Source: Kineococcus endophyticus
GTDB taxonomy: Bacteria > Actinomycetota > Actinomycetes > Actinomycetales > Kineococcaceae
NCBI RefSeq assembly: GCF_040796495.1
Contig: NZ_JBFNQN010000018.1
Span: forward strand, 1 to 64,000
Reading direction: 5' to 3'
DNA: 64,000 bases
Shown here in pieces: positions 6,145-53,000 of the stretch (the first letter of the stretch is position 1; the number at the start of each line of letters is the position of its first letter). Position numbers and translations under genes: made by a program. The notes beneath the pieces were generated by a model. That model was given only the letters and a program-made list of their open reading frames with translations, ran no database searches and had not been told where the DNA came from.

Positions 6145-6432
6145 ATGCACACGCTCGCAACATTCGCTTCGTTCGCTACCGACGCTGCTCAAGGCGGCGG
6201 AGGGGGCGGGTTCGGGACCGGCGGTCTGCGCACCTGGATTTCGGAGAACATCGTCACCCTGGCCCTGCTCGCGCTCGGGTGCATCATCCTGTGGAAGTCG
6301 CGCGGGGGAGAGGTCGCCAACGGAATCTCCATCGCCGCCGGCGCCATCGTGGGAATCTGCTTCCTCGGCATGGCCACCGGCACCACCGCCACCGAGCTGG
6401 GTAGCTGGCTCGTGGGCCTCCTGCGGGGCTGA
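6145..6432 (+). CDS. Small two-helix membrane protein, VirB2/TrbC-pilin-like position
   Basis: The 95-residue product begins with a Gly-rich segment after a short hydrophobic start, then has two transmembrane helices (NIVTLALLALGCIILW and ISIAAGAIVGICFLGMA). An AGGAG site lies six bases upstream of the ATG. It is the first gene of the conjugation operon and has the size, topology and position of pilin-like or small inner-membrane components in Gram-positive type IV secretion systems. No sequence signature proves pilin function. Confidence 0.7.
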   Translation: MHTLATFASFATDAAQGGGGGGFGTGGLRTWISENIVTLALLALGCIILWKSRGGEVANGISIAAGAIVGICFLGMATGTTATELGSWLVGLLRG

Positions 6433-6434
6433 CC

Positions 6435-6890
6435 ATGCGCCTGCCGGACGACGATGAGATTTACAACGTCGACAGCGTCTACCTCGGTCCGCCCGGCCGC
6501 TTCATCGGCCGGTTTCGGCAACGGGCCATCATCCTGTTCCCCGGCATCTTGCTGCTCGTCTTCGTCATCGAACGCCGGGCAGGGTTCCCCTTCACACTGC
6601 TCACCGTCGGCCTCACCGTCATGGCGTGCGCGGCGTTGACGGCCTCCATCGTCGACCACACCAGTAGCGAACGATCCCTCGGCGTCCTCCTGCGCACCAG
6701 TTGGCAGGAAGTCATCGGTCGCCGCCCCCGCAGGGCGACCCCGCGCAAACGCCGTACCCGCAGCGCCGAGAAGGTCCTGCGGAAGACCGCAGTCCGTCAG
6801 CGACCGGAGGAATCGCTCGGCCCCCGACGAACCCGGTTCCGTGACCTCCCGGCCCGCACAACCCCCGATACGGACAGCTCCGCCAGTTGA
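6435..6890 (+). CDS. Conjugation membrane protein, PrgI/VirB3-like
   Basis: A 151-residue protein with two adjacent transmembrane helices (AIILFPGILLLVFVI and FTLLTVGLTVMACAALTASI) and a basic, arginine-rich cytoplasmic C-terminus. The ATG lies two bases after the preceding stop, and the VirB4-type ATPase gene follows. A short two-helix protein directly before VirB4 is the usual place for a PrgI/VirB3-type subunit in Gram-positive conjugation systems. Assignment rests mainly on topology and neighbourhood. Confidence 0.68.
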   Translation: MRLPDDDEIYNVDSVYLGPPGRFIGRFRQRAIILFPGILLLVFVIERRAGFPFTLLTVGLTVMACAALTASIVDHTSSERSLGVLLRTSWQEVIGRRPRRATPRKRRTRSAEKVLRKTAVRQRPEESLGPRRTRFRDLPARTTPDTDSSAS

Positions 6891-17070: not shown

Positions 17071-17108
17071 GCATCTATGAGAACACTTGTTCGAACTGTG
17101 CCGTGAGG

Positions 17109-17123
17109 ATCACGCCCAAGCTC
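17109..17123 (+). repeat. 15-bp direct repeat, left copy (putative target duplication)
   Basis: ATCACGCCCAAGCTC directly abuts the TG terminus of an IS481-type end at 17,124. An identical copy abuts the CA terminus of the opposite end at 25,182. Confidence 0.8.
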
Positions 17124-17395
17124 TGTTATGTCTCAGGACATCGGTGACAGTTCTGCATCAGGACATCGGTGACACTTCCAGCTCTTGTGGTGGTGACACT
17201 TCCCGGTCTTCCGAGCCCACCGGGCTGCCTCAGCTGGCCCACCGCGCGGCGCGGACCCCCTGCGCCCGGCGATCCACACCCGGTGCACGTTGATGGGCGG
17301 ACCCGTCCACGCGAGCAGCACCCATGGAGCCAGGCCGCGGCCCACCCGGGGCGGCCGCGACTTCACGGTCACGGACGTCACGGTCATGCCGAATT
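17124..17395 (+). mobile_element. IS481-type left end with 240-bp subterminal block
   Basis: Two copies of TCAGGACATCGGTGACA (17,133 and 17,158) are followed by a non-coding block that ends in a CACGGTCATGCCG REP-like core. About four in five bases of this block match, inverted, 48,710-48,952. The duplicated terminal motif is probably the transposase binding site. It also fills the space before the sigma-factor gene. Confidence 0.7.
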
Positions 17396-17460
17396 GAGGA
17401 CGTTCTCAACTCGTGCCTCATGATCGGGAACCCGGCCGCAGCTGCGGGCATAGGGAGGGC

Positions 17461-18135
17461 GTGAGCGAGATGGCAGACCAGGCCGCACCCAGTGACGGGG
17501 CGCTGTGGCGGCGGGCAGCGGCCGGAGACGGGGACAGCTTCGGAGTCCTCTTCGACCGTCACGCCGAGGCAGTACACCGCTACTGCGCCCGCCGCACCGG
17601 CTCCCTGGATGCCGCCGATGACCTGCTGTCCATCGTCTTCCTGGAAGCCTGGCGCCGGCGCGAGGAGGTGCAGCTCGTCGACGAAGTCGCACTGCCGTGG
17701 CTGTACGGAGTGGCTCAACGCACCGTGCAGCGGCGCTGGCGCACGGCCCTGCGTCACCGCCGCGCTCTGCAACGCCTACCTGCGGTGCTCGCCACTCCCG
17801 ACCATGCCGATGAGGTCGCCGCCCGCCTCGATGATGAAAAGCACCTGGCTCAGCTGCAGGAAGCCTTCCGCCGACTGCGCCCTGCAGAGCAGGACGTCTT
17901 GACGCTGTGCGTGTGGCAGGGCTTGGACTACGCCTCGGCCGCGGTCGCCTTGGGCGTACCGGTCGGCACGGTGCGCTCGCGCCTGTCTCGCGCGCGAGCT
18001 CGACTGCAAGCCCACGTGCCACCCCCGGGCGAAGCCTTGCCGGGCTGCGCTCCCGCTGCGAGACCGCCAGCCGCGCCCCGCTCCTCCACCCTCGCAGCGC
18101 CCCCTACCTCCACCACCGCTTGGGAGCAGTCATGA
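17461..18135 (+). CDS. ECF-type RNA polymerase sigma factor
   Basis: The GTG at 17,461 follows AGGGAGG; 224 residues. Sigma region 2 is seen as DSFGVLFDRHAEAVHRYC and DAADDLLSIVFLEAWRRR, and region 4 as LRPAEQDVLTLCVWQGL followed by the helix-turn-helix SAAVALGVPVGTVRSRLSRA. It resembles the sigma-70 family proteins found beside CU044_5270-type partners. The C-terminal 35 residues are proline/alanine-rich. Its stop overlaps the next start (ATGA), so the downstream membrane protein is its likely partner or anti-sigma. Confidence 0.88.
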   Translation: MSEMADQAAPSDGALWRRAAAGDGDSFGVLFDRHAEAVHRYCARRTGSLDAADDLLSIVFLEAWRRREEVQLVDEVALPWLYGVAQRTVQRRWRTALRHRRALQRLPAVLATPDHADEVAARLDDEKHLAQLQEAFRRLRPAEQDVLTLCVWQGLDYASAAVALGVPVGTVRSRLSRARARLQAHVPPPGEALPGCAPAARPPAAPRSSTLAAPPTSTTAWEQS

Positions 18136-19103
18136 CCTCCACCTTGTCCGGTATGGATCCCCGACGTAGGGCTGCGGTGCGCGACCTGCTCGTGGCTGAG
18201 GTCAACGCCACAGCAGCGCGCCCGGCAGGCTTGCCCTCAACGTCCACCGAGGGGCCGGATGAGCACCGACCGGCCGCGGCGACAGCCCGGCCACCCAGGC
18301 CGCGCAGGCCGCGGCCGGCGAGGCGCCGCATCGCCGTGGGGCTCGCCTCTGCCGCGGCGGTGAGCGTGCTGGCGGCGGTGATGCTGGCCGGGGACCCCAC
18401 CGCTCCGGCCAGCTACGCCACCTGGACCGCAGCCCCCAGCCCCGCGCCGGCTGCCGGCAATTCCGAGGAGGACGGAACCTGGGATCGCGTGCTCGGGTTC
18501 TTCGGCGTGGGTGGCATCCAGACTCAAGCCTCCCAGTGCGAGGACCTCACCGGCGGCAGTGTCGGCATCGAAGGCGTGCCCCGGCGTGAACGTGACGCGG
18601 CCCAGCGCAGCGTCCTGGTCGACCGCCGCGGGGATTGGACCTTCTGCGTTGACGTCATCAAGGGCGCCGGCACCGCAAACGATCCGCTCATCGTGATGAA
18701 CGGGCTGAAGGCGGACAAGCCCATTCCCGAAGGCATCGTGGCCAGCAACAACACCACCGTGTGGGACAAGCCGTACACCTGGCCCGCTGGTGCCAACATC
18801 AGCGTGCTGGGCGGTAACCCCTTCGCCGCACCCGACGTCGACGCCGAGAAGGAGAGCTACTCCCTGGTTGGTGGGGCCGGCCCAGACGTGACTGGGGTGG
18901 ACATCAACTTGGCCGATGGAACCGTCGTCACCGCGACCGTCCATGAGGACTACTGGGCTGCGTGGTGGCCCGGAACCGTGACAACGGCCCGGATCAACAC
19001 CCTCACCATCAGCACGACCAGTGGTGAGCGCTACGACGTGGACCCTCGCACCATCGACCTGCCCTGGGAGCAGTACGGCGCCTCCACCACGCCGTGGCCC
19101 TGA
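18132..19103 (+). CDS. Single-pass membrane protein, candidate anti-sigma partner
   Basis: A 323-residue protein coupled to the sigma gene by a four-base overlap. A cytoplasmic N-terminus of about 80 residues (DPRRRAAVRDLLVAEV and a basic stretch) precedes one transmembrane helix (IAVGLASAAAVSVLAAVMLA), and the remaining 220 residues are extracellular with a cysteine pair. The layout fits the actinobacterial CU044_5270-type or anti-sigma-like partners; a zinc-binding anti-sigma HxxxCxxC motif is not visible, so regulation of the sigma factor is inferred from position only. Confidence 0.68.
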   Translation: MTSTLSGMDPRRRAAVRDLLVAEVNATAARPAGLPSTSTEGPDEHRPAAATARPPRPRRPRPARRRIAVGLASAAAVSVLAAVMLAGDPTAPASYATWTAAPSPAPAAGNSEEDGTWDRVLGFFGVGGIQTQASQCEDLTGGSVGIEGVPRRERDAAQRSVLVDRRGDWTFCVDVIKGAGTANDPLIVMNGLKADKPIPEGIVASNNTTVWDKPYTWPAGANISVLGGNPFAAPDVDAEKESYSLVGGAGPDVTGVDINLADGTVVTATVHEDYWAAWWPGTVTTARINTLTISTTSGERYDVDPRTIDLPWEQYGASTTPWP

Positions 19104-19205
19104 CCGTTGGATGTGAGGAGCGCACACGCGGTCATGGCGATGGCCGCGCGGTCCCGTCTGCGTGGTTGATTCCCGTCTGGCAGTCGTTGAGGGCATGGTG
19201 TTGAT

Positions 19206-19481
19206 GTGGCACGAGGCGTGGTCAAGTGGTTCCGAGCAGGGAAGGGCACCGGCGCCATCAGCAGTTCTGAGTTGCCCCCAGGGCGCGACGCGTGGGTGCA
19301 CCTCAGCATGATCGAAGGACCGGGACCCCTCACTTTGGAGATCGGCGAGGCGGTGGACTTCGAGTACGAAGCCGCCCAGCAGGACAGCTTCGACTTCCGA
19401 GCCACCCGGGTCCAACGCGTCACCGCCGATGACGTGCCGGTAGCGGGCCGCCCGGCCCGCTCGAAAGGACGATCTCGGTGA
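19206..19481 (+). CDS. Divergent cold-shock-domain protein
   Basis: A 91-residue protein from a GTG. It begins ARGVVKWFRAGKGTGAI, matching the cold-shock fold start, and continues DAWVHLSMIEGPGPLTLEIG. The RNA-binding motifs are degenerate: RNP1 usually reads KGFGFI but is KGTGAI here, and RNP2 usually reads VFVHFS but is AWVHLS here. It may bind nucleic acid more weakly or differently than canonical Csp. Ends in a basic tail. Confidence 0.8.
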   Translation: MARGVVKWFRAGKGTGAISSSELPPGRDAWVHLSMIEGPGPLTLEIGEAVDFEYEAAQQDSFDFRATRVQRVTADDVPVAGRPARSKGRSR

Positions 19482-19568
19482 CGCGCACGTCTTACCGCGA
19501 GGGCGGTACGCCAGAGTCAGAATGGGCTGACGTCGACGCCAAGGACTGTGCGGCGCGAAGATCGTTCC

Positions 19569-19907
19569 ATGGATGAGTCCTACCGCCCTCGTGCTCTGCG
19601 GGTGATGGCTGAGTACGGGGAGCAGGACCCGGCCTGGGACAGCGACATCGAGCACATGGGGCCGGTCACGCTGGCCGAGCTCGGCGTCAGCGAGGACCTC
19701 GTCCGGCGGCTGCGCGGGTGGAACGAGCGGTTTAACGCCATCGCCTTGACCGACTTCCGCTTCGGCAGCGCAGCCGTGGAGGACGCGTGGGCCGATGAAG
19801 GACTGCGTCTGGCCTACGAGCTGCAGAACGAGCTGTCGGACATCGTGATCAGCTACGTCCACGACGACGACCCGCGGCCCCTGCGAGACCGCCGCGGGCC
19901 AGGGTGA
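19569..19907 (+). CDS. Hypothetical acidic protein
   Basis: A 112-residue protein starting MDESYRPRALRVMAEYG, rich in Asp, Glu and Leu, with a helical second half (AWADEGLRLAYELQNEL). No membrane segment or recognised domain. The ATG at 19,569 is chosen over an upstream in-frame start because the conserved-looking part begins there. Confidence 0.6.
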   Translation: MDESYRPRALRVMAEYGEQDPAWDSDIEHMGPVTLAELGVSEDLVRRLRGWNERFNAIALTDFRFGSAAVEDAWADEGLRLAYELQNELSDIVISYVHDDDPRPLRDRRGPG

Positions 19908-19924
19908 GCATCACCCGCACACGC

Positions 19925-19955
19925 CGCGGTGCGCGCGGCGCACGGTCATCCCGCT
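19925..19955 (+). repeat. REP-like palindrome
   Basis: GCCGCGGTGCGCGCGGCGCA precedes a CACGGTCATCCCGC core, all in the orientation used throughout 19.9-25.1 kb. Lies between convergent genes. Confidence 0.65.
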
Positions 19956-19976
19956 GTCGTGACGTTCGCGCTGAGC

Positions 19977-20546
19977 TCATGGCCAGGGCTCCACGACCAG
20001 ATGAGGCCACTGCTGGGCCCACCGCTGGGCCTTGGTCTCGTAGACCTCCCGGGGTGCCAGGACCGGGTTCGGTCGCAGGCGCATGGAGAACAGGTCGCTG
20101 TAGCCGTGCGGCGCGTAGACAAGCAGCTGATCCTCGGCGGTGGTGACGCCGAAGCAGCAGGTCGTCGAGGCGAAGTGGTCGATGGCGTCGGTGGCGCTGG
20201 TGAAGGGTGCGGCGGGGACGCCGAAGTGTTCCTCGTACCAGAGGTGCACGCGTGCTTCGTTGCGGACCTCGACAGTGACGTCGAGGTCCGCGAACAGGTG
20301 GCTCGCGCGTTGGATGACGGCGTCTTCCGCCTCGTAGGACAGGTCGGCGGGGTCGAAGTAGAAGAGGTCGTAGTCGTTGATGCCCGCACCTGGATCCCGT
20401 TCCTCCAGGGCGTTCCAGACGGTCTGGAAGACCGCCCCGGCGGTCAGCCACCACTCGTCGAGCCCGAGCTGAGGTGCTCGCTGCAGCAGGATGCGGTTGA
20501 CCGGGTTGGTCAGCACGAGGTCGAGAAAGCGGGCTTGATCGTCCAC
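19977..20546 (-). CDS. Nucleotidyltransferase-like protein (DUF925/COG3575 type)
   Basis: A 189-residue protein from the GTG at 20,546 (VDDQARFLDLVLTNPVNR). The signature INDYDLFYFDPADLSYEAED and the downstream DVTVEVRNEARVHLWYEEHFG match the uncharacterised nucleotidyltransferase-like family in which a D-x-D pair would bind metal. The ending LAPREVYETKAQRWAQQWP is typical too. Physiological substrate is not known. Confidence 0.82.
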   Translation of the reverse strand: MDDQARFLDLVLTNPVNRILLQRAPQLGLDEWWLTAGAVFQTVWNALEERDPGAGINDYDLFYFDPADLSYEAEDAVIQRASHLFADLDVTVEVRNEARVHLWYEEHFGVPAAPFTSATDAIDHFASTTCCFGVTTAEDQLLVYAPHGYSDLFSMRLRPNPVLAPREVYETKAQRWAQQWPHLVVEPWP

Positions 20547-20587
20547 CGCGTCAGTGTGTCCGATCCTGGCACGCCGTTCGGTGACGA

Positions 20588-20625
20588 CTTCACGGTCATC
20601 CCGCGGTACGCGCGGAGCGCACGGC
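20588..20625 (+). repeat. REP-like palindrome
   Basis: CTTCACGGTCATCCCGCGGT is followed by ACGCGCGGAGCGCACGG; same orientation as its neighbours, between the nucleotidyltransferase and the small membrane protein gene. Confidence 0.65.
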
Positions 20626-20678
20626 GCCCGACCTGGCCCACGCTCCTGGTCCAACCCGACGCTGACAGGCTGCATCAC

Positions 20679-21080
20679 GTGCTGTCGAAGCGATGGGCCC
20701 GCGAACCACGATGGGTGCAAGCAGCCGCCACCGCCTTGGTGCTGCTGCTGACCTGGGGAGGCCTGCAGCACCTCCTGGACTTCATCACCGGCGGCTGGCC
20801 CCCCTACGCCTACGCCCCCCGGTGGCTTGCGGCCTACTGGAGCGCCCTGCTCCTCCTGGACCCCTTGGCCGCCGTCCTCATCACCCGCCGCCACCACGCC
20901 GGCATGCTCCTGGCCCCGCTCATCCTGCTCACCGACGCCGCCGCGAACGGCTACGCCATCCACGCCCTGGGCCTCGGCGGCCCACTGGCCCCGATCGGGC
21001 ACGGCGTCGTGAGCATCCTGGCCATCGCCAGCACAGCGCTGACCCCGCGGCTGCTGCGACCTGCGAACGGCCCGGCCTGA
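20679..21080 (+). CDS. Small four-helix membrane protein
   Basis: A 133-residue protein starting at GTG 20,679 (VLSKRWAREPRWVQ). About four hydrophobic segments cover most of it (AAATALVLLLTWGGLQHLL, then WSALLLLDPLAAVLI, then MLLAPLILLTDAAAN, then VSILAIASTAL). No conserved catalytic residues are apparent and no family is recognised. Confidence 0.6.
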   Translation: MLSKRWAREPRWVQAAATALVLLLTWGGLQHLLDFITGGWPPYAYAPRWLAAYWSALLLLDPLAAVLITRRHHAGMLLAPLILLTDAAANGYAIHALGLGGPLAPIGHGVVSILAIASTALTPRLLRPANGPA

Positions 21081-21137
21081 GCAGGGCGATCAGGCTCCCC
21101 AGGTGCCTGCATCACGAGGGGCCGCTACAGCGATCGC

Positions 21138-21240
21138 ACTGTCATCCCGCGGTGCGGGACTGTCATTGACCTCAAAGTCGCCGCAAAGTGCCGGCCGTCC
21201 CGCGGTGCGCGCGGACGCACGGTCATCTCGCGGTGCGGAC
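21138..21240 (+). repeat. Cluster of three REP-like palindromes
   Basis: TGTCATCCCGCGGTGCGGGA, CGTCCCGCGGTGCGCGCGGA and ACGGTCATCTCGCGGTGCGG occur within about 100 bases. The cluster precedes the second sigma-factor gene. Confidence 0.65.
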
Positions 21241-21320
21241 TTGGGGACTCCGGCAGACCGCCCCGTGCAACCCCCCAGCCCGACTGCGGCGTACATGCTG
21301 GCGACAGGGAGGAGGGCGCG

Positions 21321-21860
21321 GTGCACCTCAACTACGACGACGACAACGTGGCAACGTTCGACGCCTTCGCGGCCGCTGTCATGCCCCGACTACGCCACAT
21401 CGCCTATGCCTGGTGTCACGACTGGCACCACAGCGACGACGTCGTCCAAGACACCATGGAACGCCTCTACGCTGCCTGGCCCCGTGTCCACCGCGGCGGC
21501 CAGGAGTACGCCTACGCCCGCACCACCCTGATCCGACGGCTCATCTCCGAGAACCGCCGCGCCTGGCGACGCCACGAAAGCCTCACCCTCGACGACGTCC
21601 CCGCAGCCCGACAGCGCACCGCACCCGACGCAGCCGGCCACGCGCTGGAACGTCTGGACGCCTTGGATCTGCTGCGGCACCTCCCCGTCCGCCAGCGCGC
21701 CGTGGCCATCCTGCGTTTCCTGGAGGACGTCCCGGTCAGCGACGTCGCCGACCTACTGCAGTGCTCCGAAGGCACCGTCAAGAGCCAGGCCCACCATGCC
21801 CGCCGCTTCCTGCACCAGCACCTCACCGACCCGCACACCCCAGATGGAGCCTGGCGATGA
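21321..21860 (+). CDS. ECF sigma factor, SigE/SigM-like
   Basis: A 179-residue protein from a GTG after GGAGGGCG. Region 2 includes FAAAVMPRLRHIAYAWC and HHSDDVVQDTMERLYAAWPRV; region 4 includes LPVRQRAVAILRFLED and the helix-turn-helix VSDVADLLQCSEGTVKSQAH. This is the pattern of the small SigE-family ECF sigma factors common in actinobacteria. The next gene overlaps by four bases and encodes a membrane protein, the usual partner arrangement. Confidence 0.88.
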   Translation: MHLNYDDDNVATFDAFAAAVMPRLRHIAYAWCHDWHHSDDVVQDTMERLYAAWPRVHRGGQEYAYARTTLIRRLISENRRAWRRHESLTLDDVPAARQRTAPDAAGHALERLDALDLLRHLPVRQRAVAILRFLEDVPVSDVADLLQCSEGTVKSQAHHARRFLHQHLTDPHTPDGAWR

Positions 21861-22549
21861 CCCACTCCCCCCACCACCACGAACGCGGCGAAGACGACAC
21901 CAGGACAGGTCAGGACGTCTCCGCCGGCCTGCGCGCCGCCTTGCGTGAGCGGCCCGCCCCGCCGCCGACCTGGGACATGGCCACGATCAAGGCCCGCGGC
22001 CGGCGCCGCCGGGCCAGGGCCCGCGCCGTACCGATCGCCGCCGGGTTGCTGCTCTTCGCCGGGGTGGGCGCGGTCGCCGCCACCAGCGAGTGGCCGTGGA
22101 ACACGACCACCACCGTCGCCACGTCGGGGGTGGACGCAGAAGGCAATGACCCTGACCAGGTCGTCCGCGGCTACCTCAGCGCCCGTCAGGCCGGGGACAA
22201 CGCGCGCGCCTTCAGGGACTACTGGACTCCCGACGTCGGCTCGCGGCTCGACGTCACCACCGAACCCCTCCTGGTCGACCACGTCGACATCGGCCCGACT
22301 CAGACCGCACCCACCGGCGCCGCCGCCCGAGTGCAGGGCTGGCAGCAGGCCGTCACCGTCACGGTGACCCTGCACTGGGACAACGGCCCCGGCCTGAGCA
22401 CAGGCAAAGCACCCTCGCCCGCACAACTGGTCCTCGTCCGCCACGGCGACGACCAGCCGTGGCGGATCTTCTCCTCTTTCGACTTCCCCGGGTACAGCGT
22501 TCCGTCCATTCCTGCCCCGCCCAGCACGGGTGAAGCCACCACCGGCTGA
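21857..22549 (+). CDS. Single-pass membrane protein, partner of the second sigma factor
   Basis: A 230-residue protein with a His-rich, charged cytoplasmic N-terminus, one helix (AVPIAAGLLLFAGVGAVAA) and an extracytoplasmic domain of about 150 residues (DPDQVVRGYLSARQAGDNARAF and later QPWRIFSSFDFPGY) that looks like a secreted NTF2-type fold. Coupled to the sigma gene by ATGA. An anti-sigma or signal-input role is likely but no anti-sigma motif is visible. Confidence 0.68.
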   Translation: MTHSPHHHERGEDDTRTGQDVSAGLRAALRERPAPPPTWDMATIKARGRRRRARARAVPIAAGLLLFAGVGAVAATSEWPWNTTTTVATSGVDAEGNDPDQVVRGYLSARQAGDNARAFRDYWTPDVGSRLDVTTEPLLVDHVDIGPTQTAPTGAAARVQGWQQAVTVTVTLHWDNGPGLSTGKAPSPAQLVLVRHGDDQPWRIFSSFDFPGYSVPSIPAPPSTGEATTG

Positions 22550-22552
22550 CCC

Positions 22553-22612
22553 CGACGTCACGGTCATCCCGCGGTCCGAGCGGAGCGCACGGTCATCCCG
22601 CGATACAGGCGA
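22553..22612 (+). repeat. Two REP-like palindromes
   Basis: GACGTCACGGTCATCCCGCG and GCGCACGGTCATCCCGCGAT occur 35 bases apart, filling the space between converging genes. Confidence 0.65.
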
Positions 22613-23506
22613 TTAGCCGGCATGTGGCGACTGATCCCCGGAAGGCACGTGGCCGGTGTCGAGGTACCGGCGCAGGAGTCGAGCCCAAGCCTGGGGCTGA
22701 TCGAGGTGGACGTCGTGACCTGCGTCAGGCACGACGACGTGGCCGGTGCCCGGTCGCAACTGGAGCATCCGTTCGATTTCCGCGGCGTCGAGGTAGCTAC
22801 GCTCCGCCTGCACCAGCAGGGTCGGTGCCTGCACCTGCTCCCACTCCGCCCAGCGCGCGACCTCAGCCACCGCCGCGATGGCCGCCTGCATCACGTCAGC
22901 ATCGAAGCGAGGCCAGAACCCGCCGTCTCGCTCCTGCAGGTCCTGCGCCCAGGCCTGAGCGATCGGCGTCGCGTCGTGGTGGGCCACCGCCGCCTGCCGG
23001 GAGGGGAACGGCATCGGCCAGGAAGCGAACCAGTCCCCCAGCTGCTGAGAGGAGTCTTCCCCGCCACCGACCCCGCCTTCCAGCAGCACCAGACGCTGCA
23101 CGAGGCGGGGATGCCACGCGGCGAGCAACAGTGCGGTGTGAGCTCCCATCGACTGCCCCACCAACGAGACGGGGCCGTCGCCGACGACGGTATCGATCAG
23201 AGCGGCAGCATCGTCGACGTAGGCGCGGCGGGAGACGTCACCCGGGCGGCGGGTGCTGTGTCCGTGGCCGCGCTGGTCTAAGGCCAGCACCCGGTAGCCG
23301 TCACTGAGCGCGGTCGCGGTGGCCACCATCTCCTGCGCGCTGCCGGCCAGGCCGTGCAGCAGCACCACCACGGGTCCAGAACCGCCGGAGTCCAAGTACG
23401 ACAAGGTCACGTCCTGGTGGTGGACGTGTAGGCGCTGCACGGTGGGCTCCGATGGGTAGAGGTCTGAGCGTGGCCGACCGTAGACGAGTACCAGCCGCGA
23501 CTTCAT
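22613..23506 (-). CDS. Alpha/beta-hydrolase family enzyme
   Basis: A 297-residue protein. VVVLLHGLAGSAQEM supplies the oxyanion-hole HG, LVGQSMGAHTALLLA holds the nucleophile Ser in a G-x-S-x-G elbow, and VVVPDAGHDVHLDQP provides the likely catalytic His; an acid is expected near VQAERSYLDAAE. VLALDQRGHGHSTRRPG is typical of the family. Substrate cannot be told from sequence. The first 25 residues overlap a small direct repeat (GCGACTTCAT) and a start further inside is possible. Confidence 0.85.
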   Translation of the reverse strand: MKSRLVLVYGRPRSDLYPSEPTVQRLHVHHQDVTLSYLDSGGSGPVVVLLHGLAGSAQEMVATATALSDGYRVLALDQRGHGHSTRRPGDVSRRAYVDDAAALIDTVVGDGPVSLVGQSMGAHTALLLAAWHPRLVQRLVLLEGGVGGGEDSSQQLGDWFASWPMPFPSRQAAVAHHDATPIAQAWAQDLQERDGGFWPRFDADVMQAAIAAVAEVARWAEWEQVQAPTLLVQAERSYLDAAEIERMLQLRPGTGHVVVPDAGHDVHLDQPQAWARLLRRYLDTGHVPSGDQSPHAG

Positions 23507-23517
23507 GCGACTTCATG

Positions 23518-23552
23518 CGACTTCACGGCCAGCCCGCGGTGCTCAGCGTGCA
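23518..23552 (+). repeat. Degenerate REP-like element
   Basis: CGACTTCACGGCCAGCCCGC followed by GGTGCTCAGCGTGCAC, a worn copy of the family in the same orientation as its neighbours. Confidence 0.5.
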
Positions 23553-23582
23553 CCATTGCGCCGCTGGGCTTGACTGACCAGC

Positions 23583-24698
23583 TCACAAGTGCGTGAACAG
23601 CAGCTCTCGACGTAGTCCGAGTCCGTACCGCTCGTCCGGTCGGGCGTTGCGCCTGAGCCAGTCGTCCACGGCGTTCCCGAGGACCTGGCGGCCGATCAGC
23701 CGACCGATACGCATCTCGTGGGCCAGCATCGTCGCCGATGCCAAGTTCACAATGTCTCGGGCGACCACAGAGGACTCCAGATCGTTTTGCGGTCCCTCCG
23801 TGAACATGCGCGCGTCCTCGTAGTTCGCCTTGATGCGCAGCCGAAACAGGTAGTCCACCATCGTGTGCGGCCGCACCTTGGCGATGGCCGCGGCGCGCTG
23901 GGCCGGCTTGAGGCGGCCCTTGCGCGGCCACGTCGGCTCCTTGCGACCCGCCTTGCCCTGCGCCCTTCTCGCGGTCTCTTCTGCGCGCCATGACTTCTTC
24001 TGCGCCGCGACGAGCTCAAAGCGGAGCTTGTCGAGCTTGGCGTCGATCGCGTGGGCGCGCGTGCTCGTAAGCGCCTTGGCTGCGATGTCCCAGCAGTTGT
24101 CCCGGTCGCAGGTCGTCCATGCGTGCACGTCGGCCAGCGGCCGCCCCGGCCCGTTGCGCGATCCATCTGCTGCCGACTCCTTGTGCCCTGGATCACCCAT
24201 AGCGAAGCTCCACGGAGCTACCGAGAAGGCGCGGGTGATCCAGAGCGCTCCAACCTGGTCCTGCGTCCCGGGGTGGTTCGTCGGCCGTTCCCGTCCCTCC
24301 GCCGTGATCAGTGCCTGCGTCGCGCCGTAGGAGATGTAGTAGAGCTGCACCGCTCCCCAACTGTTGGCGAGCCGTATGAGGTCTTGATCGCGGGCCGTGT
24401 GACGGGTCATGTTGAGGATGAGCTCCGTACCCCACGCCCGGTTCAGGCAGTCGAGGACGAGTCCCACGTCCACCGGCTGCGGCTGCGGCTTCGTCGACGC
24501 GGGGACGCGGTTGGCGAGCGTCTGCGCCAGCGTCTCAAGGCCGCGCTCGGTCGTCGTGACGCCCGAGAAGCCAGCAAGGTGCGCGAAGGCGCTGAGGTAG
24601 TGCGAGTGCGTGCGGAACGAGCCGACAGCCTCGTCGTTGATGAACGTTTCGGTCACGAGTACATGATCGCCGAGGTAGTCGTTGTCCCTGGGGTGCAC
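23583..24698 (-). CDS. Unrecognised 371-residue protein
   Basis: I do not recognise a family. The protein is soluble and mixed alpha/beta. Visible landmarks are GLVLDCLNRAWGTELILN, AVQLYYISYGATQALI, a Cys/Asp/Trp-rich strip (AWTTCDRDNCWDIAAKALTS), a basic coiled-coil-like middle (residues 220-275) and a helical C-terminus (VVARDIVNLASATMLAHEMR). The C-terminal helices are reminiscent of HEPN-like accessory proteins, but the RxxxxxH motif was not found, so this is not asserted. Start at GTG 24,698 is tentative. It lies inside the IS481-ended unit next to a REP array. Confidence 0.72.
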   Translation of the reverse strand: MHPRDNDYLGDHVLVTETFINDEAVGSFRTHSHYLSAFAHLAGFSGVTTTERGLETLAQTLANRVPASTKPQPQPVDVGLVLDCLNRAWGTELILNMTRHTARDQDLIRLANSWGAVQLYYISYGATQALITAEGRERPTNHPGTQDQVGALWITRAFSVAPWSFAMGDPGHKESAADGSRNGPGRPLADVHAWTTCDRDNCWDIAAKALTSTRAHAIDAKLDKLRFELVAAQKKSWRAEETARRAQGKAGRKEPTWPRKGRLKPAQRAAAIAKVRPHTMVDYLFRLRIKANYEDARMFTEGPQNDLESSVVARDIVNLASATMLAHEMRIGRLIGRQVLGNAVDDWLRRNARPDERYGLGLRRELLFTHL

Positions 24699-24712
24699 GC
24701 CTCAAACGACTT

Positions 24713-24832
24713 CACGGTCATCCCGCGGTGCGCGGGCGCACGGTCATCCCGCGGTGCGCGGGCGCACGGTCATCCCGCGGTGCGCGGGCGCACGGTCATC
24801 CCGCGGTGCGCGGGCGCACGGTCATCCCGCGG
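24713..24832 (+). repeat. REP tandem array, 26-bp unit
   Basis: Four complete copies and a partial fifth of a 26-bp unit, starting CACGGTCATCCCGCGGTGCG, lie head to tail with no spacers. Each unit can fold through CCCGCG-GTG-CGCGGG. The array lies just upstream of the 371-residue gene and is the only uninterrupted array in the window. Confidence 0.9.
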
Positions 24833-24851
24833 AACGGGTGGTAGTAGCGGC

Positions 24852-24962
24852 TCAGTCGCGTGACGCGGCACCCTTTCCACTGCCGGCGCGCTTGCGCGGC
24901 CACAACACGATCCACACCACCGAAGCGATGGCGGCACCCATGATCATCGACGGGACGTCCAT
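24852..24962 (-). CDS. Small single-helix membrane protein, 36 residues
   Basis: ATG at 24,962 with GAGAGGGTGG seven bases upstream opens a 36-residue frame that starts MDVPSMIMGAAIASVVWIVL and continues WPRKRAGSGKG before the stop. It has one transmembrane helix followed by a positively charged tail, as expected for a genuine small membrane protein. Function unknown. Confidence 0.45.
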   Translation of the reverse strand: MDVPSMIMGAAIASVVWIVLWPRKRAGSGKGAASRD

Positions 24963-25019
24963 GGTCCACCCTCTCAAGACCGCCCCGACAAGGCGCCATG
25001 ACCTACCGCGGGCGAGCAG

Positions 25020-25080
25020 CTCATCTCGCGGTCCGCGACCTCGCGGTCATCCCGCGTTGTGCGCGCTGTCACGACGGGCG
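25020..25080 (+). repeat. Degenerate REP-like elements at the inner edge of the right IS481-type end
   Basis: CTCATCTCGCGGTCCGCGAC and CGCGGTCATCCCGCGTTGTG, same orientation as the rest of the unit. Confidence 0.55.
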
Positions 25081-25105
25081 AGCGACGGCGACTCCGCTCT
25101 ACGAC

Positions 25106-25182
25106 TGTCACCGATGTCCTGAAACATGAAGTGTCACCGATGTCCTGATGCAGAGCTGTCACCGATGTCCTGATACATCACA
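25106..25182 (-). mobile_element. IS481-type right end
   Basis: Three copies of TGTCACCGATGTCCTGA lie in tandem, ending at a CA terminus at 25,182. This three-copy arrangement matches the sequence downstream of the transposase at 45,829-45,905 and the end at 48,953-49,035, so this is the transposase-3'-side end type, whereas 17,124 is the other type. Confidence 0.75.
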
Positions 25183-25197
25183 ATCACGCCCAAGCTC
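25183..25197 (+). repeat. 15-bp direct repeat, right copy (putative target duplication)
   Basis: ATCACGCCCAAGCTC, identical to 17,109-17,123, abuts the outer tip of the right IS481-type end. Confidence 0.8.
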
Positions 25198-25642: not shown

Positions 25643-26866
25643 ATGAACGCCGTTGATCGAAGGCATGAGATCGCCACCCTCCCCTTATCCAGAATCGGCA
25701 CAGTCGAGCCAACCGCGAACGATTCACTGCAGGCCTTCACCTGGCGATGTCCGCAGTGGCCTCGAGCTGCCGATGCCGTCAACGGATACCTACGTCAGCT
25801 ACAGAGCAGCGACGCCCGACCAAGCACCTTGCGTTCCTACGCCTACGACGTACAGCGGTGGTTGAGGTTTCTCCGATCCATCAACGTCGAGTTTGACGAG
25901 GCGTCACAGTTCGACTACTACGACTTCCGCACCTTCCTCAGGCACCACGGCAAAGACCACGGCGCCAGACGGTCCCGCGGACCACAGTTCGCGCAGCGCA
26001 ACCTCACGACGGGCAAGGTGCACGCCCACGCCAGCGAGTTCGGACTGGCCACTCTGCAGCACTCACGTACCGTTCTGCACGAGTGGTACGAGTTCCTCCA
26101 CGACGTCACCGGCGCACCGTTGACCAACCCGATCCCGCATTCCTACCGGCGGGAGCGAGGTCACCAGCGGATCCATGAGCACCACAACCCGATGCAGGAC
26201 TTCACCGCGCACCGTCCCAGGCTGCGCGAAGGCGGCCGCAGAGTCCCCACTACCCAACCCCGATCCATGACCAACGACACCTTCGACGACTTCTGGAAGG
26301 CGCTGACCTGCCACCGAGACCGCGCGCTGGTCAAGGTGCACGTCGATACGGCGATCCGCCCCTCAGAGCTGCTGGCTCTCACCGCTGGTGATGTGGACTG
26401 GGGTAGACCGACGATCATCGTCACCAGGAAGGGCACACGGGCACGCCAGGTTCTCCCCCTATCACCCGAAGCACTGGAGTGGCTTGGGAGGTACCTCATC
26501 GAGGCGGACTACGCGCCGACGCCCGAGCAGCCGCTCTGGGTAACCAGACGGAAGCCACGCCGACCCCTGGCCTACGACGCCTACCGCCTCGTCTTCCACC
26601 GGGTGAACGCGGTCCTGCAGACCGACTGGACGCCGCACGACCTGCGCCACACCGGCCTATCCAGGATGCTCGCCGCCGGCATGCCCGCGCGCTACGTGCA
26701 GGAGATCGCCGGGCACGCGAACCCGCACACACTCACCCGGTACACCAGGCCGCACCTCGAGGAAATCATCGCCGCCCAAGCCGCGGCTCGCTCCCGCCCA
26801 GAACCCCCGCCGCCGCCCTCGGCTTACGACCCGCAGGACCTGCAGACCCTCTTCGGCGGCCGTTGA
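25643..26866 (+). CDS. Tyrosine recombinase / site-specific integrase (first of two)
   Basis: A 407-residue protein with a SAM-like N-terminal DNA-binding region (STLRSYAYDVQRWLRFLRS) and the catalytic domain: first Arg in DTAIRPSELLALTAGD, HDLRHTGLSRMLAAG with His and Arg, GHANPHTLTRYT with the second His and the Tyr nucleophile. It resembles the shorter TnpA-type recombinase of Tn554-like two-recombinase cassettes. A second, longer recombinase follows 68 bases later in the same direction. The C-terminus is Pro-rich. Confidence 0.88.
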   Translation: MNAVDRRHEIATLPLSRIGTVEPTANDSLQAFTWRCPQWPRAADAVNGYLRQLQSSDARPSTLRSYAYDVQRWLRFLRSINVEFDEASQFDYYDFRTFLRHHGKDHGARRSRGPQFAQRNLTTGKVHAHASEFGLATLQHSRTVLHEWYEFLHDVTGAPLTNPIPHSYRRERGHQRIHEHHNPMQDFTAHRPRLREGGRRVPTTQPRSMTNDTFDDFWKALTCHRDRALVKVHVDTAIRPSELLALTAGDVDWGRPTIIVTRKGTRARQVLPLSPEALEWLGRYLIEADYAPTPEQPLWVTRRKPRRPLAYDAYRLVFHRVNAVLQTDWTPHDLRHTGLSRMLAAGMPARYVQEIAGHANPHTLTRYTRPHLEEIIAAQAAARSRPEPPPPPSAYDPQDLQTLFGGR

Positions 26867-26934
26867 TCGCTGGCATGGACCGTCGGGCCACCGAGTCGGG
26901 TCTGCCCTGAGAGGGCGGCCACCAAGGAGGCGGG

Positions 26935-29373
26935 ATGCAGGGCACGGGGCAACCGGTCATGCACATCGTCAGCGCGGAGGTTGGCGTGGGAACAGCATGC
27001 GAGCGGGTCGGTGTCAGGGTGGGAGCTGATCATCCGAGTGCTGGGTCACCGGCCAGCCCTAGCACCATGGCCACGGTCGAGGGCTCGAGCCTGCGGCGCG
27101 CCTCGGTCGAGGCAATCGTCGAGCGCATCCTGGAGCACAACCGCAGGGAGGGCAAAGATCCCAACAACGTGCGACACCGGGTCCGTGGTGCTGAACACGT
27201 CTTGCGCTATCTCTCGACCCATGACGGCGCGTGCTGGCAGGAGCGCTGGGACTCGTCACCTCTGGCCATGGCCACCCTCAACCGGTGCCCTCAGCTCATC
27301 GTCCCCGGCTGCTCGACCCCACTCCGCGCTCGGCTCACGAGAGGTGTCTCGGTCTTGCTGTCCCTCGACGTCGTCCGTCCTGGCCTGCACTTCGTCACCG
27401 GGACCAGAGCCTGTGAGCTCTGGAAGCAGCTGCCGCTGTGGCGACAGGATGCCGATGCCGGCCTACTGCAGACCCGACGCCAAGGGACCCTGCAGTCCAG
27501 GCAGCACGCCTGCGCCCTTCTGGGGCGAGTGATGCTGCTGACCGGCAAGACGATCGCGCAGGTCAGTAGCGAGGATCTACTGCACTACAGGGCTCTCACC
27601 CGTGACGTCGCCCCGGCCTACGGCATCGAGCAGCTGTGGAACGCGCTGGCGGCGCTGCCGACCAGCCCAGTCACCGGGACCTTCCGTGCCAGTCAGCGTC
27701 CCGGCCAGCGCAGCATCGAAGAGCTGGTCGACCTGTATCCGGTCCGCAACCGTCGTGTCCGTAAGCTCTTCATCGTCTACTTCACCCGTCGGGCACCGGA
27801 CCTGGACTACTCCAGCCTGCGGACCTTGGTCTTCACCTTGGTCTCCTGGTTCTGGTGCGCCGTAGAAGAGGTCGAGCCGGGAATCGACACCTTGGCCCTG
27901 GCGCCGGCGACCGTGGAGGCGTGGGTCCAGAAGGCGACGTTCAGGACTCTCCCCGGTGGTGAGCGGGTAGAGCGCCGCAACCTGCCTCATGGCTACATGA
28001 CCGTCCGCAGCTTCTATCAAGACCTCCAGCGGTGGGCCCATGAGGAGCCTGAACGGTGGGCGGTGTGGGCCTGCAGGTCACCCATCACCGACCAGCATCT
28101 GGCCGGCTACCGCAAGTGGCGGCGACGCCTGACCAGCGAGATGCACCAGCGAACCCGTCACCGCGCTCCGGTTGTGACACGGCTGGCCGACGCGGCCGAG
28201 AGTTTCGCTGCCGAAGCTTCTGCGCTGCTCGAAGCTGCCGCAGCCGCAGACAGCGGGGCGGAGTTCGTTCACGACGGCGCCCACTTCCGGCGCGTGGGAG
28301 CCGGCAAGGCCGGGCAGCGGATCCGTGTCCTCCAGCTCGACGCCCCAACGGCTCAGGTGCGTGACCTGACCACCGAGGAGGAAGACGCCTTCTGGGCGTT
28401 CTGCTTGATCGAGACCCTTCGGCACACTGGGGCACGCATCGAGGAGGTCCTGGAGCTGACCCAGATGGACCTGACCCCCTACGAGCGCGACGGGCAGACC
28501 GTCGTCTTGCTGCACATCAACCCGTCCAAGACCGACCAAGAGCGGATCGTCGTCGTCCCACCTGAGCTTGCCGCCGTCTTCGCGCAGATGACGACCCGTG
28601 TCCGTCACGCCGCCGGCGGCACGGGGCAGGCGCTTCCGCTGGTCACCGCCTACGACTATGGGGAGGCGCGCGAGCTCGCCGCGCTACCGATGCTGTTCCA
28701 GCGCACCGCCGGACGTGGCGTCATGGGGGTCACCAGGCCGATGAACAGCAAGTACGTTCGCCAGGTCATCACCGCGACCTGCGATCGGGCGCGGATCACC
28801 GGCCCTGACGGGCAGGTTCTGCGCTTTACACCGCACGACTTCCGGCGGTCCTTCGCCACCGATGCCCTAGCTTCCGGGCTGCCCCCGCACATCATCGCCA
28901 AGCTCATGGGCCATGAGTCGCTGCTGACGACCCAGCAGTACATGGCCATCTTCCCTGAGGACGTCATCCGCGCTCACCGCTCCTTCGTCGCCAAGCGGCG
29001 GTCGCTGCCTGAACGTCGTGAGGAGTACCGGTCCACGACCGAGGCGGAGTGGAAGGAGTTCGAGGAGCACTTCGGCAAACGGCAGATCGCCATCGGCAAC
29101 TGTTTGCGCGCTTACAGGTCTTCGTGCAGCCACGAGTACGCCTGTGAGCAGTGCAAGCTAGCCCGTCCCGACGAGGCCGCACGCCCCCGCCTCCAGCGGG
29201 TGCTGACGGGCCTGGCTGAACAGCTCACCGAGGCGCGTTCACACGAGTGGGCAGGAGAAGTTGAGCGGCTGCTCTACATCCAAGCCGCCGTCCACGACAA
29301 GCTCGCAGAGCTCGACCGGGCTCGGCGACGCAATCAGAGCGTGACCCTACCGATGCCCTCGGTCAGGACCTGA
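26935..29373 (+). CDS. Large tyrosine recombinase (second of two, TnpB-like)
   Basis: An 812-residue protein; the ATG follows a strong AAGGAGG. The catalytic domain is in the last third: HTGARIEEVLEL with the first Arg, FTPHDFRRSFATDAL with His-x-x-Arg, MGHESLLTTQQYM with His and Tyr. A C-terminal Cys cluster (SSCSHEYACEQCKLARPDEA) resembles the zinc-binding tail of TnpB-type recombinases. It probably acts with the upstream recombinase in excision and integration of a cassette. No third recombinase follows, so this is not a full RIT-type trio. Confidence 0.86.
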   Translation: MQGTGQPVMHIVSAEVGVGTACERVGVRVGADHPSAGSPASPSTMATVEGSSLRRASVEAIVERILEHNRREGKDPNNVRHRVRGAEHVLRYLSTHDGACWQERWDSSPLAMATLNRCPQLIVPGCSTPLRARLTRGVSVLLSLDVVRPGLHFVTGTRACELWKQLPLWRQDADAGLLQTRRQGTLQSRQHACALLGRVMLLTGKTIAQVSSEDLLHYRALTRDVAPAYGIEQLWNALAALPTSPVTGTFRASQRPGQRSIEELVDLYPVRNRRVRKLFIVYFTRRAPDLDYSSLRTLVFTLVSWFWCAVEEVEPGIDTLALAPATVEAWVQKATFRTLPGGERVERRNLPHGYMTVRSFYQDLQRWAHEEPERWAVWACRSPITDQHLAGYRKWRRRLTSEMHQRTRHRAPVVTRLADAAESFAAEASALLEAAAAADSGAEFVHDGAHFRRVGAGKAGQRIRVLQLDAPTAQVRDLTTEEEDAFWAFCLIETLRHTGARIEEVLELTQMDLTPYERDGQTVVLLHINPSKTDQERIVVVPPELAAVFAQMTTRVRHAAGGTGQALPLVTAYDYGEARELAALPMLFQRTAGRGVMGVTRPMNSKYVRQVITATCDRARITGPDGQVLRFTPHDFRRSFATDALASGLPPHIIAKLMGHESLLTTQQYMAIFPEDVIRAHRSFVAKRRSLPERREEYRSTTEAEWKEFEEHFGKRQIAIGNCLRAYRSSCSHEYACEQCKLARPDEAARPRLQRVLTGLAEQLTEARSHEWAGEVERLLYIQAAVHDKLAELDRARRRNQSVTLPMPSVRT

Positions 29374-45740: not shown

Positions 45741-45862
45741 TCACTCTGGAGGACGACTCCTGTTAGGTGCCTGCGGATTGCGAGGCCACCGACACGATGT
45801 GACGTCCGTGACCATGAACTCCGGGCGATGTGATGTATCAGGACATGGGTGACAGTTCTGCA

Positions 45863-47265
45863 TCAGGACATCGGTGACTCTTGATGTGTCAGGACATCGG
45901 TGACAGTCGCTGCAGTGAGCGGTCGCCGGCCCGCGGGTCGGCCGTTGCCGACGTACCGCACGCCTGGGGCGGGGCAGGTGTGCTCGATCAGGACCTCGCC
46001 CTGAAGATCGGTGACGATGATCTTGTCGCCGTCGGTGGTGATGAGGACCTGCTCGAAGCCGTACTGCCCATCACCCGGTACTGCACCGAGTTCAGCATGA
46101 AGGTGCCGGCGCTGGTCAACGTCCTGAGACGGGTGTCGACGTGAAGGTCCAGCGGCGCAGCGACCGGCGGGTCGGTGCGCACGGTTGTAGATGTGCCCGT
46201 GGGTGTGACCCCGGGCGAGCTCAACCCGCTGGGGCCGGGCTCGGCGACCGCCCGCGAACGCCGCGGGTCGAGCAGCGGCGAGAACGGAGCGGCGGCCTTA
46301 GGTTGCTCGAAGTGCGGCCGCGGCGCCGCCGCCTTGGCGGTGGCCAGCCACGCCGTCAGGGGCGTGACCCGGCCTGGCAGACCTTGGTGGGGTCGCTGGG
46401 TGTTGTAGACGTCGTCGAAGGCGTCGACCTGCGCCTGCAGCTCGACGAAGCTGTCGGCCAAGGGCTGCTGGTCCAGGTAGCGGAACAGGGTCTGGTGGAA
46501 GCGCTCGTTCTTGCCTTGCGTGATGGGCTTGTACGGCTTGCCCGTGATCGCCTCCACCCCCAGGGCGGAGACGTGCTCAACGAGCCGGCCCACCCGCCCG
46601 CGCCGGGTGGGGTTCAGCGCGGTGCCGTTGTCGGTGAGCAGTCGTTGCGGGACACCGTGCGCGGCGACCGCCTTGTCGAACGTGGCGATGGCTGCCGCGG
46701 CGGTCTCGCTCGCAGCGACCAGGGAGGCGAGGGCGTAGCGGGAGTGGTCGTCCAGGAGCTGGAAGATCACGCACTTGCGTCCGCCGGTGAGGACGTACTC
46801 GGTGGCGTCCATCTGCCAACAGGCGTTCGGGGCGGGGTAGACGAACCGTCGCCACGCTGAGCGGGGCCGCTTCTTCGGCTCAGCGCGGGCCACACCCCGC
46901 TCGCGCAGGATGCGGGCCAAGGCGGCGGTGGAGGGCACCACCGGCAGGCCCATCGAGGTCATCTTGTCGTGCACGCTGATCGGGCCGTGGTCCAGGCCGG
47001 AGGCGGCCAGCGCGGCCCGGACCGCGACGGCCTGGTCCTTAACGTCCTCGGTCAGTCTTGTCGGGCTGGAGGCTGGGCGCCGGGATCGGGGCTCGAGCAC
47101 CGCTGCCGGACCATGCTCCTGTGCTCGTCGGCGCAGCGCGTAGAAGGACTTGCGGGAAATGCCGTGCTCAGCGCAGAAGGTCGAGACCGCCCCGCGCGGG
47201 GCGTCTTGGGGCCACTGCGCGATGGCGAGGCGGATGCGAGGGGCGATGGGGTCATGAGCAGCCAC
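45863..47265 (-). pseudogene. IS481-family transposase, frameshifted near the C-terminus
   Basis: The N-terminus has a helix-turn-helix (FCAEHGISRKSFYALRRRA) and the DDE catalytic core: D in CWQMDATEYVL, D in RLLTDNGTALNP, E in GKNERFHQTLFRYL. The frame shifts at about 46,068, after LNSVQYRV; the expected tail (YGFEQVLITTDGDKIIVTDL and onward) is present in the next frame, ending at 45,863. The in-frame product ends at 45,988 with an unrelated tail. Activity of the shortened protein cannot be ruled out because all catalytic residues are upstream. Confidence 0.8.
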
Positions 47266-47296
47266 CGCCGCAGCGTGAAGTCACTGTCCGCGAGCT

Positions 47297-47320
47297 CCAC
47301 CGCGGGATGACCGTGACGTC
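47297..47320 (-). repeat. REP-like element, inverted orientation
   Basis: CACCGCGGGATGACCGTGAC is the complement of the CACGGTCATCCCGC core seen at 19.9-25.1 kb. Confidence 0.6.
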
Positions 47321-47367
47321 GGTCAGGTCGCGGTTCCGCGGTATGTAAGGCGCGCGAGGATGGCCCT

Positions 47368-47754: not shown

Positions 47755-47800
47755 CCCGCCCTCTCGCCACGACTCTGACGTCGCGGGGCGCCAGCGAAAG

Positions 47801-47856
47801 CGCGCGCACCGCGAGATGACCGTGCGCTGTGCAGGCCGCGAGATGACCGTGAAGTC
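47801..47856 (-). repeat. Two REP-like elements, inverted orientation
   Basis: GCGCACCGCGAGATGACCGT and GGCCGCGAGATGACCGTGAA occur 30 bases apart, next to the truncated 262-residue gene. Confidence 0.55.
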
Positions 47857-47877
47857 GGTGGCGTACAGGTCCGTCGG

Positions 47878-48666: not shown

Positions 48667-48709
48667 CAGGGGACAGTACTGAAGACGTCACTCCCAATAG
48701 CACGCAGAT

Positions 48710-49035: not shown

Positions 49036-49064
49036 GGGTGGAGTAGGCGCCGACGCCCACGACT

Positions 49065-50406: not shown

Positions 50407-50425
50407 GCGACCGGGCCGAGCCTGA

Positions 50426-52980: not shown

Positions 52981-53000
52981 TGTCTCGAGGTGCATCAGCA

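Follow-up and report, generated by a model that had tools for sequence, protein, structure and literature searches.

An IS481-ended unit of Kineococcus endophyticus carrying a directional, integron-like array of gene modules

The best-known platform for assembling single genes into directional arrays is the integron; attC sites of integrons carry the motifs RYYYAAC...GTTRRRY, and integron genes are mostly co-oriented with the array. In pdif modules, orientation alternates. Excerpts of two papers on Acinetobacter (PMC7399989, PMC12907356) describe pdif modules as gene modules bounded by short recombination sites and associated with Xer-type recombinases, and an excerpt of the IntegronFinder 2.0 paper (PMC9024848) reports no complete integrons in Actinobacteria. 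For the IS481 family of insertion sequences, target duplications of 2-15 bp, mostly 6 bp, are given in part of a further source (PMC10045372), with 15 bp for the archaeal ISMac4 and ISA0963-1. Here we describe an 8,059-bp unit with IS481-type ends, at positions 17,124-25,182 of the first 64,000 nucleotides of contig NZ_JBFNQN010000018.1 of Kineococcus endophyticus (assembly GCF_040796495.1), a stretch referred to as the window.

The initial annotation of the window had recognised a cargo unit between such ends and overlooked its main point, the organisation of the cargo as an ordered series of modules with directional sites at the joints. We consider it quite probable that the unit is a non-autonomous IS481-type transposon with a directional cassette array that was built by a recombinase and is moved in trans; the array is best read as integron-like in design, with neither IntI nor attC. 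The left arm would end in an attI-like site, after which modules follow, each closed by an attC-like site of about 30 bp with the core CGGTCATCCCGC, and the right arm would start at the last attC-like site. Modules would be gained, lost or swapped via site-specific recombination inside the core, the likeliest enzyme being the 315-319-aa Xer-like tyrosine recombinase of these arrays, and an IS481-type transposase, such as the one encoded 20.6 kb away, would move the whole arm-bounded array in trans with a 15-bp target duplication. The terms cassette, attI-like and attC-like are used by analogy. Genomes are labelled G (G000 being the window's own genome), contigs C and fetched stretches L; stretches were fetched around many, not all, of the matches to the left end.

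Ends and directional sites of the unit

The unit begins with TGTTATG... and ends with ...CATCACA, its TG...CA termini and inverted ends being a feature of the IS481 family. As the initial annotation had stated, identical 15-bp copies lie flush with these termini: the only two exact copies of ATCACGCCCAAGCTC in the window are those at 17,109-17,123 and 25,183-25,197 (both on the plus strand), and shuffled windows contained a mean of 0.14 matches to this 15-mer, even with up to two mismatches. The length of this exact duplication is inside the range of the family. Five exact copies of the 17-mer TCAGGACATCGGTGACA were identified, two on the plus strand (17,133-17,149 and 17,158-17,174) and three on the minus strand (outer edges at 25,173, 25,148 and 25,122); with up to three mismatches, it had 12 matches in the window versus a mean of 0.24 in shuffles. 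A chance origin of the ends was ruled out by these shuffle controls and the exact 15-bp repeat. The motifs had been placed at 17,124 and 25,182; they do exist, but these positions are the termini and not the motif starts. The description of a two-motif left end and a three-motif right end holds for the exact motifs; a third, degenerate copy, GGTGGTGACACTT, was identified at the left end and is present in most aligned left arms.

The left end (LE) arm covers 17,124-17,402 (plus strand), with the attI-like site GGACGTCACGGTCATGCCGAATTGAGGACG at its inner edge (17,373-17,402, plus strand; score 23.1 with the position matrix introduced below), and the right end (RE) arm, with its three motifs, covers 25,041-25,182 on the minus strand. 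The absence of a transposase from the unit, already noted in the initial annotation, was borne out both by a Pfam scan of ten open reading frames (ORFs) and by tblastn with the window's own transposase, neither of which revealed one.

Between the genes of the unit lies a repeat of about 30 bp, always in one orientation, with the near-invariant core CGGTCATCCCGC. A position weight matrix (PWM, threshold 10) for this site gave 461 matches in the fetched stretches, on which it had itself been built, versus 3 in the same stretches reversed. The unit contains 15 sites, all of them in the sense from left end to right end. After the attI-like site, attC-like sites were identified on the plus strand at 19,935-19,964 (PWM 20.3) and 20,585-20,614 (42.7), as a group of three at 21,131-21,241 (cores at 21,136, 21,189 and 21,217; PWM 28.9, 11.1 and 26.3, the second being weak), as a pair at 22,553-22,611 (cores at 22,558 and 22,587; 39.9 and 33.6), in a degenerate form at 23,518-23,547 (18.4), as five tandem sites with 26-bp spacing at 24,707-24,840, and finally at 25,036-25,065 (41.2), at the inner edge of the RE arm. 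The sequence GCGACTTCAT is repeated 2.9 times at 23,497-23,525 and runs into the degenerate site.

The same directionality was found elsewhere. All 72 sites in nine units (eight transposase-less ones and the second element of the window, described below) face from the left end to the right end; a tenth stretch, L066, has no site. In chromosomal arrays, the two senses stand at 75:0 (G001 C1, 140-240 kb), 119:1 (G007 C2, 4.56-4.76 Mb) and 70:7 (G001 C1, 1-100 kb), and site intervals of at least 120 bp (n=247) have a median of 803 bp. A 16-mer independent of the matrix, allowing one mismatch at most, matched 5-150 times per genome in 11 of 11 genomes of the genus versus 0-3 times in 18 others, and its reversed form gave 0 or 1 match. 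A 21-mer site pattern had no match in the genome_contigs collection, from which near genomes are possibly absent. Genes show no preferred direction with respect to the sites (89 in the same sense, 92 in the opposite one; no clear ORF in 57 of 238 intervals), and therefore the sites are not terminators following genes, a role that was rejected. A replication-strand rule for site direction was also dropped, because the arrays within 1-240 kb of G001 face opposite ways and, in G007, L046 is reversed.

Module boundaries and the array recombinase

In an all-against-all comparison, 108 shared segments of 180 bp or more were found inside arrays once duplicates, segments lying wholly in the listed left-end arms and identical segments longer than 1,500 bp had been removed. 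Segment ends lay within 30 bp of a site in 78 of 216 cases, versus a mean of 7.4 and a largest value of 23 in 500 rotations, and both ends did so in 25 of the 108 segments (mean 0.2, largest 3, 500 rotations); small local shifts, used as a control, gave means of 8.5 and 0.02, respectively. At 90% identity or more, the figures were 34 of 48 ends and 14 of 24 segments with both ends, versus chance means of 1.7 and 0.05 (200 rotations). Orientation relative to the sites was kept in 91 of the 108 segments. We aligned 30 boundary pairs on the upstream side and 38 on the downstream side, all with 78% identity or more, a length of 200 bp or more and conserved orientation. Mean identity stayed close to background up to the upstream core and rose past it, with the reverse at the downstream core. 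Since mean identity changes across the cores at both kinds of boundary, the switch lies inside CGGTCATCCCGC.

Such matches extend to the unit itself. Its hydrolase module (22,591-23,538) is 82% identical to a stretch of G007 that is bounded by sites on both sides, positions 24,793-25,065 match another contig of the same genome at 97% (G000:C17:123719-123995), and positions 24,817-25,055 match G001:C1:413706-413945 at 88%. Several copies of an element of 2.5 kb that encodes two or more tyrosine recombinases were also seen in G001 (C1 77.6-80.1 kb, L135/L136, and 165.4-172.0 kb, L138); two of them are 99.4% identical and start at a site core. As a guess, this element could be of the Rit type.

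A tyrosine recombinase of 315-319 aa is encoded within the arrays of G000, where an open copy lies on contig C17, and of G001, G003 and G010; only parts of it were found in G002 and G008. In nine of the nine copies examined (short G002 pieces on C14 and C27 were left out), the gene has the orientation of the sites within 3.5 kb, as does the broken G001 copy at 205 kb relative to its own sites; at the G003 copy, one minus-strand site call lies 3 bp from a plus-strand call. The protein scored 120-122 bits against the XerC and XerD models, below their cut-offs, and 54.2 bits against the integron-integrase model TIGR02249, which has a cut-off of 265. Its best PDB match was XerD (E 1.2e-20), with IntI4 at E 1.2e-4, and it aligns with what we take to be the six catalytic positions of XerD. 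By these sequence comparisons, the predicted enzyme is Xer-like and not an integron integrase. In 7 of the 9 copies, the stop codon is followed by a stretch resembling the left-arm site; as its scores are 9-12 and the 99th percentile of random windows is 11, a putative attI-like site beside the recombinase gene is suggestive only. Thirteen bases, CGAATTGAGGACG, are common to the left arm of the unit and one G001 recombinase copy. Near the recombinase gene in L135, a divergently oriented 176-aa ORF (6,350-6,880, plus strand) with no family match was observed, and a similar ORF lies beside the G000 C17 copy. Two more tyrosine recombinases (407 and 812 aa) are encoded directly to the right of the unit, at 25,643-29,373 of the window.

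Relatives of the array recombinase at about 32-40% identity (in G016, G034, G033, G015, G011 and G026, in G009 of the genus and on G000:C26) had no repeated-site array in the fetched 16-20 kb, so that by this approach the system was not detected beyond the genus. The relative in G009 (L165, 9,322-10,802; 39% and 60% identity over two pieces) is followed after about 600 bp by a strong same-facing site (PWM 25.9), and two other stretches around relatives, L166 and L168, have single weak site matches. A 51-aa recombinase fragment with 76% identity in G026:C289 was left out of the array check. In a plasmid search, recombinase relatives were found only below 60% identity (18 records).

Related units, the IS481-type transposase and cargo genes

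Matches to the left end were found in 14 of 99 genomes: the window's own, 8 of 10 others of the genus and 5 of 88 more distant ones. Besides the unit, ten complete end pairs were read by eye (L066 and the second element of the window were left out), and those with no tblastn match to the window's transposase were termed transposase-less. Of the three pairs that enclose a transposase, two (L051 and L058) carry an exact 15-bp repeat and L059 (1.5 kb) has none; among the seven transposase-less pairs, an exact or 14/15 repeat was identified in four, exact in L048 and 14/15 in L050, L053 and L057. The shortest transposase-less unit, L053, is 1,222 bp long and has two sites.

What the unit has in common with L048, L050, L053, L054, L055, L063, L069 and L070, counting segments of 180 bp or more, is the left arm only, and the LE arm is similar across transposase-less units of relatives and diverges past the site. 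An inward attI-like site (GACGTCACGGTCATGCCGA... or near) is present in 12 of the 21 LE ends listed, 229-270 bp from the terminus in 11 and 164 bp in one. On the other side, 14 of 22 right ends have an attC-like site in the expected sense and none has one in the wrong sense; its distance from the terminus tracks the number of motifs, being 88, 104-114 and 138-142 bp for one, two and three motifs, the last in all eight three-motif ends that carry a site.

The initial annotation had proposed a search for the empty target and for the same ends around different cargo. The second is what was found, as related arms enclose other cargo in relatives. The small ORFs on either side of the unit have counterparts in G001 that are direct neighbours, with no unit between them; the flanks match C1 on the same strand (left 159,317-159,544, right 159,056-159,185) and, when joined, align to G001 in one piece (69% identity, 495 columns, 53 gaps, E 5e-63). 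The flanks do adjoin there, but a single copy of ATCACGCCCAAGCTC cannot be read in G001 because the spacer has diverged. Because related arms enclose other cargo with no relative of the transposase, and because the flanking ORFs are adjacent in one relative, the reading of the unit as a transporter-type, non-autonomous transposon, one of two offered at the outset, is supported. Before the ORF to the left of the unit lies GAACACTTGTTC (17,081-17,092), with identical bases in G001, which presumably resembles a LexA box.

A second unit, with a transposase and two modules, lies at 45,829-48,952 (minus strand) and is a possible helper. Its IS481-type transposase (45,988-47,265, minus strand; NF033577, 1.5e-62, 211.7 bits, below the cut-off of 224) is located between related ends (45.8-48.95 kb), and the three-motif end that had been noted beside it at 45.8 kb indeed adjoins the 3′ end of the gene. 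The LE arm of this unit has an attI-like site (48,699-48,728, minus strand, PWM 14.7), and its outer LE motif is absent where another end starts at 48,953. The transposase is the sole match in its own genome at E ≤ 1e-20; among the fetched stretches, tblastn matched it only in the second unit itself and in L051, L058, L059 and L060, and the plasmid search gave relatives in 2 records. All five transposase-adjoining right ends are among the eight right ends with no site, while the left end of the second unit has one.

IS481-type ends stand back to back in the window (48,951-48,953), in L048 (5,613-5,629) and in L051 (9,230-9,246). In both L048 and L051, the 15 bp found on either side of an element are at the same time the spacer to an older end, an arrangement which suggests that IS481-type elements may prefer insertion beside existing ends. 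Beyond the second element, the window has further same-facing sites (49,013-53,763), where an attI-like site at 51,758 is only 39 bp from an attC-like site at 51,797.

The first module of the unit starts with a gene for an extracytoplasmic function (ECF) sigma factor (17,413-18,135, plus strand; PF08281 6.4e-15, PF04542 6.8e-10; start codon uncertain), followed on the same strand by a protein frame with an uncertain start and no Pfam family above cut-off (18,132-19,103), a cold-shock-domain protein (19,206-19,481; PF00313 1e-7) and a 119-aa ORF with no family match (19,548-19,907). An NTP_transf_6 protein is encoded on the minus strand at 19,977-20,510 (domain about 19,992-20,480, start uncertain; PF06042 5.2e-54 in the ORF 19,977-21,002). 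Another ECF sigma factor (21,321-21,860, plus strand; PF08281 3.9e-13) overlaps the frame of a possible partner (21,857-22,549, plus strand), with no Pfam match, which would be an anti-sigma factor by position only. The remaining genes lie on the minus strand: the alpha/beta hydrolase module (22,613-23,506; PF12697 3.6e-25), a 371-aa protein (23,583-24,698) with no match in Pfam, NCBIfam, PHROGs or PADLOC and no relative confirmed in genome_contigs, and a 36-aa ORF (24,852-24,962) in a 225-bp module. In the array intervals of G001 and G007, 74 ORFs picked by length and by GC content at third codon positions matched 40 Pfam families at E ≤ 1e-4; APH-type phosphotransferases were the commonest (5 of 74), and transposases were among the matches.

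Competing explanations and known systems

Several observations weigh against a recombinase-built array that is moved in trans. No circle, excision or transposition was seen. No 15-bp repeat flanks L046, L055 or L059, and that of L047 is at best 11/12; 9 of 21 left ends have no attI-like site (L052 has an attC-like site instead and eight have none), 8 of 22 right ends have no attC-like site within 260 bp, and a genus-wide search gave the transposase in only 2 of 11 genomes. As for the modules, the first one of the unit (2.6 kb) contains about four ORFs, and of the 108 shared segments, 83 have no site near one or both ends and 17 differ in orientation. The recombinase has no close copy in 5 of the 11 genus genomes (G004, G005, G006, G007 and G009) and only partial copies in G002 and G008. 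The strongest counter-evidence comes from G007, which has 96 site matches and module copies that are 97.6-99.7% identical, yet is one of the five; its copy may have been lost, or a different enzyme may be at work there. The attI-like match after the stop codon is modest, since its median score of 10 is reached by 2.0% of random 45-bp windows, and it was missing from 2 of the 9 copies.

Some of these points would suit an explanation that we regard as improbable, in which the sites are dispersed REP-like repeats and the modules are shuffled by homologous or illegitimate recombination with no dedicated recombinase. The sites occur in all 11 genus genomes searched, with close recombinase copies missing in five, tandem 26-29-bp repeats exist, and there is weak support for a hairpin following the core (138 of 332 sites, versus a mean of 115.5 and a largest value of 138 in 500 column shuffles). 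IS200/IS605 and REP/RAYT systems likewise have short directional sites and a weak hairpin tendency. However, an identity switch within a 12-bp core is short for homologous recombination, the arrays are directional, the random gene direction shows that the sites are not terminators behind genes, and the Y1 transposase of the REP/IS200 type (PF01797, E ≤ 0.01) was found in none of the 11 genus genomes, on which ground an origin from either system was rejected.

It is very unlikely that the IS481-type transposase itself moves the modules, with the sites read as single degenerate ends. The site is loosely like part of the insertion sequence motif (by eye, unscored) and arrays do lie inside IS481-ended units, but the boundary sequences have no visible TG...CA ends or inverted repeats at the module edges, and G007 has long arrays, yet no match to the transposase at E ≤ 1e-20. 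We give even less credence to the other reading in the initial annotation, a composite transposon of two full insertion sequence copies with lost cores; both ends are present and inverted, but this is disfavoured because the inner halves are shared arms of near-constant length that end at sites and are common to other transposase-less units, rather than transposase remnants, and no transposase match lies inside the unit. Least credible of all is a transposon-borne true integron with IntI and attC, which has the same design of recombinase gene, insertion site and directional module array, but is opposed by the low integrase score, by the lack of paired integron motifs at the sites (0 of 363) and by genes that face either way.

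Returning to the recombinase-built array, the evidence in our opinion tilts towards Kineococcus having its own gene-cassette capture system, arisen apart from integrons, with an Xer-like recombinase, an attI-like site beside its gene, attC-like sites with the core CGGTCATCCCGC and chromosomal arrays of dozens of modules; IS481-type transposons would have taken up this platform and would carry small arrays, as a counterpart of mobile integrons. If true, cassette capture arose more than once, here with an unrelated site and a different tyrosine recombinase. Such a system could also account for patchwork stretches of Kineococcus chromosomes, would give a testable recombinase and site, and would mean that a transposon uses a cassette platform as a space for interchangeable cargo. 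In literature searches, the titles and abstract openings listed, all of open-licence papers, contained no report of a comparable cassette system, and neither 'repeat' nor 'integron' occurs as a word in the main text of the article on the K. radiotolerans genome (PMC2587704).

Compared with known systems, the arrays share with integrons a directional order of small mobile gene modules with diverse cargo, a tyrosine recombinase gene with a possible insertion site adjacent, and the occurrence of chromosomal arrays together with small transposon-borne ones. The identity switch inside CGGTCATCCCGC, as seen by sequence comparison, would be compatible with insertion by site-specific recombination at a fixed core, as in integrons. 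They differ in that no IntI-type integrase was found, the Xer-like recombinase being far below the IntI cut-off, and paired RYYYAAC/GTTRRRY motifs were detected around 0 of 363 Kineococcus sites (160 bp each), versus 0.15% of random windows. Whereas integron cassette genes are mostly co-oriented, genes here face in either direction and, unlike in integrons, the recombinase gene faces along the array. Like pdif modules, as far as the excerpts cited above describe them, the modules are bounded by short, here putative, recombination sites and accompanied by Xer-type recombinases; in contrast to them, the sites here keep a single direction across tens of kb, and the arrays contain one recombinase gene. 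The array site is also, we assume, unlike dif. With the IS481 family, the unit and its relatives share TG...CA ends, and the transposase of the second unit best matches the IS481 model. Unlike transposase-less cargo units of that family, the end arms here carry attI- and attC-like sites, and because of this, the cargo would be an array of modules and not a fixed passenger gene. In sum, the cassette layer fits none of the tested defining sets of features of the known families considered, and the transposon layer is ordinary IS481-like.

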